This document shows, piece by piece, positions 6,432 through 9,800 of a stretch of DNA of 61,942 nucleotides; position 1 is the stretch's first letter, and each line of letters begins with the position of its first letter. The translations under genes and the position numbers were made by a program. The notes under the pieces are model-generated. The model was given only the letters and a program-made list of their open reading frames with translations, had not been told where the DNA came from and did not search any database. Source of the stretch: a bacterium (GTDB lineage Bacteria > CLD3 > SB21); the NCBI GenBank assembly GCA_013360215.1, contig JABWCP010000022.1, forward strand, positions 1 through 61,942, read 5' to 3'.

Positions 6432-7205
6432 TCAAATATCATATAACGCATAGTCACCGTTGCGCGAAACAACGATCATAGTTTCTTCTTTCATTGGCGT
6501 CCATCCGTCATTGTTGTCTAAGGCCTCCGAAGTGACCAGTGTGCCGCCTTGATATGAAGTATAATAACCCAAACTATGCATTACTTTAGTAGCGATCAGG
6601 TAGTCCCGCGTAAGCATCATAAAATTTAATTGCGGTTTTCGCGATGCGTCCGCACGGCGACTGATTTCTCTAAGATCGGCTATGGTATGCTGCAATGCCG
6701 TACGTACGAAATGGATGTCCAGCGTTTGCGCTGGATTATATTTACGAAGATACGTCAGAAAAAGATGCATGGCATATTCGGAATCCGTATTTCCCGTAAT
6801 ATGTCCGCTAAGCGCGGGATCAATTTTGGCTAATGCCGAATCCATAACGTTTTCAATTCCGTAAACCGATCCGTTGTGAGCAAAAATAATGTCCTGATGA
6901 TATATCCAGGGATGTGTATTGACCTTGGATGCACCGCCTACCGATGCCCGGCGTATATGCAACATGACACGTTTGAACGGCCGATGGGCTGTTTCCAAAA
7001 AAAGTTTATCGTTACGGGGCGCCGAAGCTTCCTTTATAACGTGGAATTGTCCATTTTCTTCGAAACCAAATCCCCATCCGTCGTCGTTGGGTTTACAACT
7101 GTCACGATCGCATACGCTTTGCCGGAGAATTCCGTTAGGCGCATCAAGAATTACGTTTTGTAATGATACCGGATTCGGCCCGGCATACCCCATGAGTCTG
7201 CACAT
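6432..7205 (-). CDS. Class II glutamine amidotransferase (YafJ/EgtC-like)
   Basis: 257 residues starting MCRLMGYAG. After Met removal, Cys2 would be the N-terminal nucleophile of an Ntn-type glutaminase. Further motifs fit the domain: HIRRAS near residue 103, NTHPW, and FAHNGSVYG, which lines the glutamine pocket. No synthetase domain is attached, as in YafJ/DUF4261-type stand-alone members, so the ammonia acceptor is unknown. The ATG overlaps the ancestral stop of the upstream large gene (TGATG), so the two were translationally coupled before that gene was frameshifted. Confidence 0.85.
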   Translation of the reverse strand: MCRLMGYAGPNPVSLQNVILDAPNGILRQSVCDRDSCKPNDDGWGFGFEENGQFHVIKEASAPRNDKLFLETAHRPFKRVMLHIRRASVGGASKVNTHPWIYHQDIIFAHNGSVYGIENVMDSALAKIDPALSGHITGNTDSEYAMHLFLTYLRKYNPAQTLDIHFVRTALQHTIADLREISRRADASRKPQLNFMMLTRDYLIATKVMHSLGYYTSYQGGTLVTSEALDNNDGWTPMKEETMIVVSRNGDYALYDI

Positions 7206-7408
7206 CAGTGTTTTATCAATTCAAAACAATGTTTAAGATAGACTTTAAATTTTTCAGAGTTAGCCAAACGATCATATTCAATTTTCAAAATCGTTGCCGG
7301 TTTTTTATTTTGATCAAGTTGATACTGCATTCGTTTAAAGGAATCTAAATATTTTCCTTGCAAAGTTTCAATAAACGGGCGGAACCTATCAGCGTTTTTG
7401 GAATCACC
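7205..7408 (-). pseudogene. Severed C-terminal 67 codons of the large upstream gene
   Basis: These codons continue the reading frame of the gene at 7431-9800 if one copy of the adjacent 34-bp tandem repeat is removed. They encode a helical Lys/Asp-rich segment starting SGDSKNADRFRPF and ending CFELIKH. No plausible start codon or ribosome binding site precedes it in its own frame. The stop overlaps the start of the amidotransferase gene (TGATG), showing that this was the natural end of the intact ~853-residue protein. Confidence 0.8.
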
Positions 7409-7475
7409 CGATAACTGTTGTACGACCCCCTCAATGACCGTCCGATAACTGTTGTACGACCCCCTCAATGACCGT
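7408..7475. repeat. Perfect 34-bp tandem duplication causing a frameshift
   Basis: Copies at 7408-7441 and 7442-7475 are identical. Each encodes TVIEGVVQQLS on the minus strand. Because 34 is not a multiple of three, the second copy shifts the frame and ends the protein after three foreign residues. The perfect identity implies a very recent event or an assembly error. Confidence 0.95.
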
Positions 7476-9800
7476 AACCGTTTTACCGATATGACTATTG
7501 AGATCACTTTTGATTGTTTCCAAAGCGCTTTTATAAATAATCCAATCTTTGTGCGTGGATGTCTCGGCATAACCCATCGCCTGTGAAACATAATTTTGAA
7601 ACCGCTCATCATTCATCAACGTCATAAACTCGGCTTTGACTTGAGGCGCTGATTTTTTTCCGGCTTCGATGGAATCTTTATTATCATTCACCGCAAAATA
7701 ATCATCATCACGGAGCTTGCCTATCACTTCTTCATGCTCTGCATTTTTATCATCATCTAGCGCATCAAGCAGCTTACCAAGAAAACGATGGTATTCGTCG
7801 ATCAAAGGCACGACTTCTTGTTTAGCGCGAATTTGTGTATTTTCAAAATGACGCCAACCGATCGCATCCTGCAAAAGCGCTAAAATCAGATTGACCGCAC
7901 GTTGGGTATGACGAGGATATTCAGGACGATCCAAACGACGCGTCATGAGGTACGTGCCATAATTTTTTATATCCAAAAGCGTCTCTTCAAACGTCCCTTC
8001 TTCTTCCGCTTTAGCTAAAACGGACTCCGGAATAATATTTTTCTTCACTGCATCGGATTCGATTGCACGAATGGATTCCTCTTTGAATACGGCCTTTACC
8101 TTGGCCTCAACGTATTTGACATTAAACGCATCACCGTCATCCGAACCCTTAGTGATCGTGCCGACACGAACATAATCTGCAACAGCTAATCCCAGTTCCG
8201 CATCGTTGATTTGATCTAGTATTCTATGGACACCGGGTTTATCAAGCGTGAGACGTTCTTTATCAATAAAATCGGCAACTTGGTTGATTGCATTAAACGC
8301 GCGTTCGGCACTGTTAAAAAAACCAAGCCGTTTACGTATTTCATGAAAATGACTGATGCGTTGATTGAGTTCGTCTTCATCCACGGTCATATCCGGCGGC
8401 ATTTTAGTCAGATCTAAACCAATGTAATCGGTAGATAATTTCAGATAGCTAGGATCAATATCAAATTTGGACATAAGCCGCGCTGAAAGGTATCGAGCGG
8501 CCAAGGCTGCTTTTTTGATATCAGAATCTTCTTCTTTCATCACGCCTTTATCAATATGCGGCAATTCGTATTTAAAATATTCGACGACGCGACGATAATC
8601 ATCTTTTTTGGCGTCCAGTTCTCCGATGAGTTCGACGAATTCGTATACTTCTTTGATTTGGAAACCTTTAATCTTAAAAATCATTGATGTGAGGTACTGC
8701 GTTTCCGCGGCGATCTCGACCAATTTGGCCGGATCGTGTAATGATTCATCGGGGTTATCAAGACGCCGCGCAAAGGAAATAGCCGCTATCGTCTGATCGG
8801 CGATATTATCTGCGGCCAGAACGCGGCGAATTTCTTCTTTGATTTCATCGTCAAGTGTCGGAAAATTATCCTGAGCTAGTTTCTCTTCGTATTGCTCCAA
8901 AGCAACATTAATTTCGAGCGAATTGATAAGTTGTAACCATTCTAATTTTTCAGTTTTTGAACCGAGTTCAATATTCAAGTCACCGGATAATGTCGTTTCG
9001 ATAATGTGGTCCAGTATACGAAATTGACGTTTGATATTATTCGATTGCCCCAAACGATTGATGATAATGCCTTCCAGCGTATCGTTAGGATAATTGTATT
9101 CCGCTAAACGCATCTGCAATTTGGATAAAAGATAATTATTGATCATATCCTTCATCGTTATGGACTCGCTTTTACGCATGGTTTCTTCGCGCTTCATGGC
9201 TTCAGCAACCAGATTGACCACAAAAACACACTTCATCGTCGCGTCGTTATTGAGGTCGACATTATCAATTATATGAATCAAATGCGTTAGCGTCTCCGTA
9301 TCGCGAATTTTCTTCTCAAAAAGTTCTTTGAGTTCTTTTCCCTTTCCACTTTTATCGCCTTTAGTTCGTTCGGAGGCTGCCTTTTCCAAAACGATATTGA
9401 GTACGGCATTTTCGATGGAATCGTTGATAAATTCTTCCATCTTACCGTCAAAAATCGGAGTGCCGAAATTTGAGGACTTGTTGACTAAAAGCGTCAACAA
9501 CAAATTGATCATGTGTGAAGGTACTTTATGCTCGGCAAGAACCAGCTCCATCTTCGTTAAAGCCGCGACATCTTCAAGCTTGCTGACCAATAAAGTTTTA
9601 TTAGATGACCGCTTTTTTTCAATTTCCTCTTGTATTCGCTCGGTCACCGCATTGATTTCTGTTTCCGAAAAGCGTTCAAGACGCGAACGAAATTGCGTGA
9701 CATGTTCAGGAACCAGTTTGCCCGGAAAATCCGGAGCTTGAACAAGTTCCATCAACTGGTTCAGTGCAATTTGTTGTTGTTGCTGGTCTTGCGTTGCCAT
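7431..9800 (-). CDS. Large helical cytoplasmic protein of unknown function, C-terminally truncated
   Basis: 789 residues as it stands; I do not recognise a family. It has no signal peptide or transmembrane helix, is strongly acidic/basic mixed, and is predicted almost entirely alpha-helical, starting with a Gln-rich stretch (DQQQQQ). It lacks obvious enzyme motifs, which would fit a scaffold or solenoid. The last three residues (DGH) are an artefact of the 34-bp duplication. Repairing the frame would add 67 residues, giving ~853, and restore an end that overlaps the amidotransferase start. That arrangement suggests a functional link with the amidotransferase. Confidence 0.75.
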   Translation of the reverse strand: MATQDQQQQQIALNQLMELVQAPDFPGKLVPEHVTQFRSRLERFSETEINAVTERIQEEIEKKRSSNKTLLVSKLEDVAALTKMELVLAEHKVPSHMINLLLTLLVNKSSNFGTPIFDGKMEEFINDSIENAVLNIVLEKAASERTKGDKSGKGKELKELFEKKIRDTETLTHLIHIIDNVDLNNDATMKCVFVVNLVAEAMKREETMRKSESITMKDMINNYLLSKLQMRLAEYNYPNDTLEGIIINRLGQSNNIKRQFRILDHIIETTLSGDLNIELGSKTEKLEWLQLINSLEINVALEQYEEKLAQDNFPTLDDEIKEEIRRVLAADNIADQTIAAISFARRLDNPDESLHDPAKLVEIAAETQYLTSMIFKIKGFQIKEVYEFVELIGELDAKKDDYRRVVEYFKYELPHIDKGVMKEEDSDIKKAALAARYLSARLMSKFDIDPSYLKLSTDYIGLDLTKMPPDMTVDEDELNQRISHFHEIRKRLGFFNSAERAFNAINQVADFIDKERLTLDKPGVHRILDQINDAELGLAVADYVRVGTITKGSDDGDAFNVKYVEAKVKAVFKEESIRAIESDAVKKNIIPESVLAKAEEEGTFEETLLDIKNYGTYLMTRRLDRPEYPRHTQRAVNLILALLQDAIGWRHFENTQIRAKQEVVPLIDEYHRFLGKLLDALDDDKNAEHEEVIGKLRDDDYFAVNDNKDSIEAGKKSAPQVKAEFMTLMNDERFQNYVSQAMGYAETSTHKDWIIYKSALETIKSDLNSHIGKTVTVIEGVVQQLSDGH

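Follow-up and report, generated by a model that had tools for sequence, protein, structure and literature searches.

Phase variation by tandem duplication within an open reading frame has been described for the pneumococcal capsule genes cap3A, cap8E and tts (Waite et al., 2001, 2003, as cited in PMC4022640). The locus presented here resembles these genes in carrying one precise head-to-tail duplication within the open reading frame, by which the frame is shifted and which the exact deletion of one copy could undo. In the capsule genes, however, switching has been measured and a surface phenotype is associated with it, whereas here one assembled genome displays no variation and the affected protein has no known role. 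Equally relevant for comparison are the false short duplications that arise at joins in draft short-read assemblies. With these, the duplication shares the exact two copies, the lack of homology at the edges and the absence from relatives; a sister case in the same assembly is located on a contig vertex, while the site under study is without a demonstrable contig boundary. A direct match to this exact assembly fault was not found in the literature. We consider it fairly probable, from the structure of the draft assembly and the comparison with relatives, that the duplication has been created by the joining of assembly pieces.

The duplication and the interrupted reading frame

The window, by which the whole analysed stretch of 61,942 nucleotides is meant, corresponds to C22, one of the 56 contigs of a draft assembly. 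As indicated by the initial annotation, two perfect 34-bp copies shift the frame of a large gene. A repeat search and Tandem Repeats Finder located the copies, identical in 34 of 34 positions (100% identity), head-to-tail inside this minus-strand gene, with the copy at positions 7442-7475 being read first and the copy at 7408-7441 being read second, in the shifted frame. The 68-bp array consists of exactly 2.00 copies of the 34-bp unit with zero matching bases at either edge, and other tandem arrays of similar size were not detected by Tandem Repeats Finder in the 62-kb window. At a probability of 4^-34 per position, a chance origin of the identity is negligible in 62 kb.

The frameshift caused by the 34-bp unit leads to a premature stop (TGA, 7431-7433) within the copy read second. 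This leaves an N-terminal open frame of 789 amino acids (7431-9800, minus strand), in which the identity to relatives amounts to 67-72% as far as residue 785. The remaining codons are held by a second open frame of 135 amino acids (7612 to 7205, minus strand) ending with the TGA at 7205-7207. Downstream of the array on the minus strand, 203 nucleotides extend from 7407 to 7205, so that the 67 downstream codons counted previously are correct. Throughout the analysis, the broken gene has been treated as two separate pieces with the inserted 34-bp copy left in.

Equally, the previously noted TGATG overlap with an amidotransferase gene is present at 7203-7207 on the minus strand, where the natural stop of the large gene (TGA, 7205-7207) overlaps the start of the next gene (ATG, 7203-7205). 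This neighbour (6432-7205, minus strand) encodes a class-II glutamine amidotransferase-like protein of 257 amino acids with a match to Pfam GATase_4 (E=1.9e-18) and a score below the NCBIfam EgtC cut-off. An amidotransferase of the close type adjoins the large gene in only one relative, G001 (47% identity); the other relatives possess only approximately 30% identical homologues located elsewhere in the genome. Rfam elements were not found in the region.

The full-length protein in related genomes

Among 60 genomes searched, the large protein is present only in the window's own genome and in six genomes of the same family, and a profile search in nine genomes of the phylum equally confines it to this family. 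The description of the protein as conserved-looking is thus right within one taxonomic family, as all seven genomes have it. A recognised domain was not identified in the protein, as the Pfam matches are weak and not common to the members of the protein family, and the search of NCBIfam and PDB sequences returned nothing. The AlphaFold model of a homologue, calculated from a two-row alignment, is poor (pLDDT 49.5, pTM 0.29); this low-confidence model is all-helical, with the position equivalent to the cut (about residue 788) predicted in a helix spanning residues 754-790 and with the last three predicted helices beyond it. Each genome of the family also harbours a diverged paralogue, 27-34% identical and encoded by an open frame of 582-689 codons; in the present genome it is found on contig C5 (L015:1087-3084).

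All six same-family relatives read through the site without a duplication and continue for approximately 70 residues further, with open frames of 860-866 codons corresponding to 851-859 amino acids from the first methionine. Their alignment to the long frame of the window ends at residue 785-786, the point of the frameshift introduced by the duplication, while the second frame of the window matches their C-terminal approximately 78 residues at 56-59% identity. In accordance, the family profile matches the window as two pieces, profile positions 2-792 and 774-857, the latter assigned to 7208-7459 (E=3.9e-30) within the C-terminal remainder encoded in the other frame (7205-7459, minus strand). 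The 34-bp array is absent from six of six relatives, each species being represented by one genome. As judged from sequence, this comparison, which the initial annotation had proposed, shows the duplication-free, full-length form to be ancestral, since the site is read through in every relative.

Homologues that end naturally at the duplicated segment, which had been named beforehand as the observation speaking against a truncation, amount to zero among the six same-family relatives. This result also bears on whether the 789-amino-acid protein might be a working product or whether ribosomal frameshifting at the stop might still yield the full-length form. Although the loss would amount to only about 8% of the protein and the two frames are open to either side of the stop, inspection by eye revealed no recognised slippery site and none of the homologues terminates there, which makes such a product most improbable.

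Equally, the relatives bear on the possibility of a selected phase-variation switch, in which one-copy and two-copy forms would coexist and interconvert to turn the full-length protein and its coupled amidotransferase neighbour off and on. A unit of 34 bp, a length not divisible by three, and an open and conserved tail would suit a switch of this kind. However, the array comprises two copies only and is found in none of the relatives, copy-number variation has not been seen, and the protein is without a recognised surface domain and without a known surface or antigen function. The existence of such a switch is consequently very unlikely.

Age of the lesion

The two 34-bp copies show no differences. 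The C-terminal tail is free of stops and has kept a coding pattern with third positions changing most. The branch leading to the tail measures 0.41 substitutions per site versus 0.23 for the rest of the gene, but unique changes show no significant excess in the tail (Fisher p=0.11). Given two identical copies and a tail without significant decay, the lesion is either young or present only in the assembly record. An old pseudogene was considered as well and has been rejected on the tail that lacks stops, its 56-59% identity to relatives and the same non-significant test for decay.

If the lesion is young, a real and very recent 34-bp tandem duplication would have occurred in the sampled strain as a loss-of-function mutation. 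The protein would lose about its last 70 residues, translation would stop approximately 225 nucleotides before the amidotransferase start so that any translational coupling would weaken, and slippage that removes exactly one copy could revert the mutation at low frequency. The perfect copies and the conserved tail in the other frame are consistent with such an event, and a natural precedent is provided by the tandem duplications within pneumococcal capsule genes, some of which are revertible (PMC4022640, citing Waite et al., 2001, 2003). On the other hand, the gene is intact in all relatives, and the exact 2.00 copies imply edges devoid of the microhomology that slippage would usually leave behind. 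Taken together with the features of the assembly considered below, a real duplication is a possibility to be taken seriously, if a rather doubtful one.

Joins in the draft assembly

In dozens of cases the contig ends of the draft overlap by exactly 99 nucleotides; the contigs thus meet at 99-nucleotide graph vertices, which is the pattern to be expected from a de Bruijn graph assembly. Of stretches of this assembly totalling about 2 Mb, about 1.8 Mb, the window included, were scanned for perfect tandem copies. True short-period arrays aside, the scan yielded just two further perfect duplications with two copies and a unit of at least 17 bp, namely one of 17 bp on contig C49 and one of 24 bp on contig C7. 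The latter (C7:155051-155098; L050:18893-18940), a perfect duplication of exactly 2.00 copies in the orfA of an IS3-type element, is the only other in-gene duplication of this sort in the approximately 1.8 Mb.

The final base of the first copy of this 24-bp duplication is also the base at which contig C54 ends, and up to there C54 shares exactly 99 nucleotides with C7. Among 112 contig ends, this end is the only one that lies deep inside another contig with a full 99-nucleotide match. The motif of the 24-bp duplication is carried once by homologous IS3 proteins. As the 99-nucleotide vertex between C7 and C54 is simply nucleotides 1-99 of the IS3-type element, it would be a coincidence if a real duplication ended exactly at this vertex. 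The straightforward reading is that probably two graph pieces sharing the vertex have been joined with 24 bases of their overlap kept. Because this duplication sits exactly on a vertex and is absent from homologues, the assembly appears to leave some overlaps unmerged.

We infer that the same joining fault, with 34 bases, may have made the second copy in the window. Two pieces with overlapping ends would have been placed end to end with the 34 overlap bases left unmerged and hence written twice, breaking the frame on paper only. In the cell, the gene would be whole, with a length close to the 851-859 amino acids of the relatives and with its stop overlapping the amidotransferase start in the TGATG. 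In favour of such an origin are the identical copies, their exact number of 2.00, the lack of edge microhomology, the tail without significant decay and the absence of the duplication from all six relatives, along with the 24-bp case, equally of 2.00 copies, which falls exactly on a contig joint. The presence of this like-formed duplication in the same assembly also counts against a real mutation. At the duplication in the window, neither one of the 112 contig ends nor an alternative contig is located, so that its link to the fault seen on C7 is by analogy.

Against a joining fault, the 68-bp array fits inside a 99-mer. Being shorter than 99 nucleotides, an array truly present in the reads could be represented faithfully by a graph with this k, and that a k=99 graph could resolve so short an array is in line with a real duplication. 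Short tandem duplications are, in addition, an ordinary class of real mutation. From the three explanations put forward by the initial annotation, the assembly error is nevertheless favoured over a recent mutation by the structure of the assembly, while positive evidence for the phase-variation-like switch did not emerge.

If the duplication is a joining error, broken genes called from such draft genomes may equally be joining errors, and a simple check is offered by asking whether the boundary between the copies falls on a contig vertex. Should the duplication be real instead, it would represent a young loss-of-function mutation of an ordinary kind, affecting a protein that has no known function and is conserved within one small bacterial family.

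Further repeats and gaps in the assembly

The perfect 17-bp two-copy duplication on contig C49 (L128:3181-3214) is located at the very end of a gene, the reading frame of which is unharmed because the first copy already includes the stop codon. Contigs C18 (L041:1-99) and C44 (L123:14555-14653) both terminate in a perfect array of the same 13-bp unit, present in 7.6 copies over 99 nucleotides, and a longer array of this repeat probably breaks the assembly between the two contigs. The only run of N in the stretches scanned, 1071 bases long (C3:71898-72968; L079:11898-12968), is a scaffold gap or else a stretch that was withheld.
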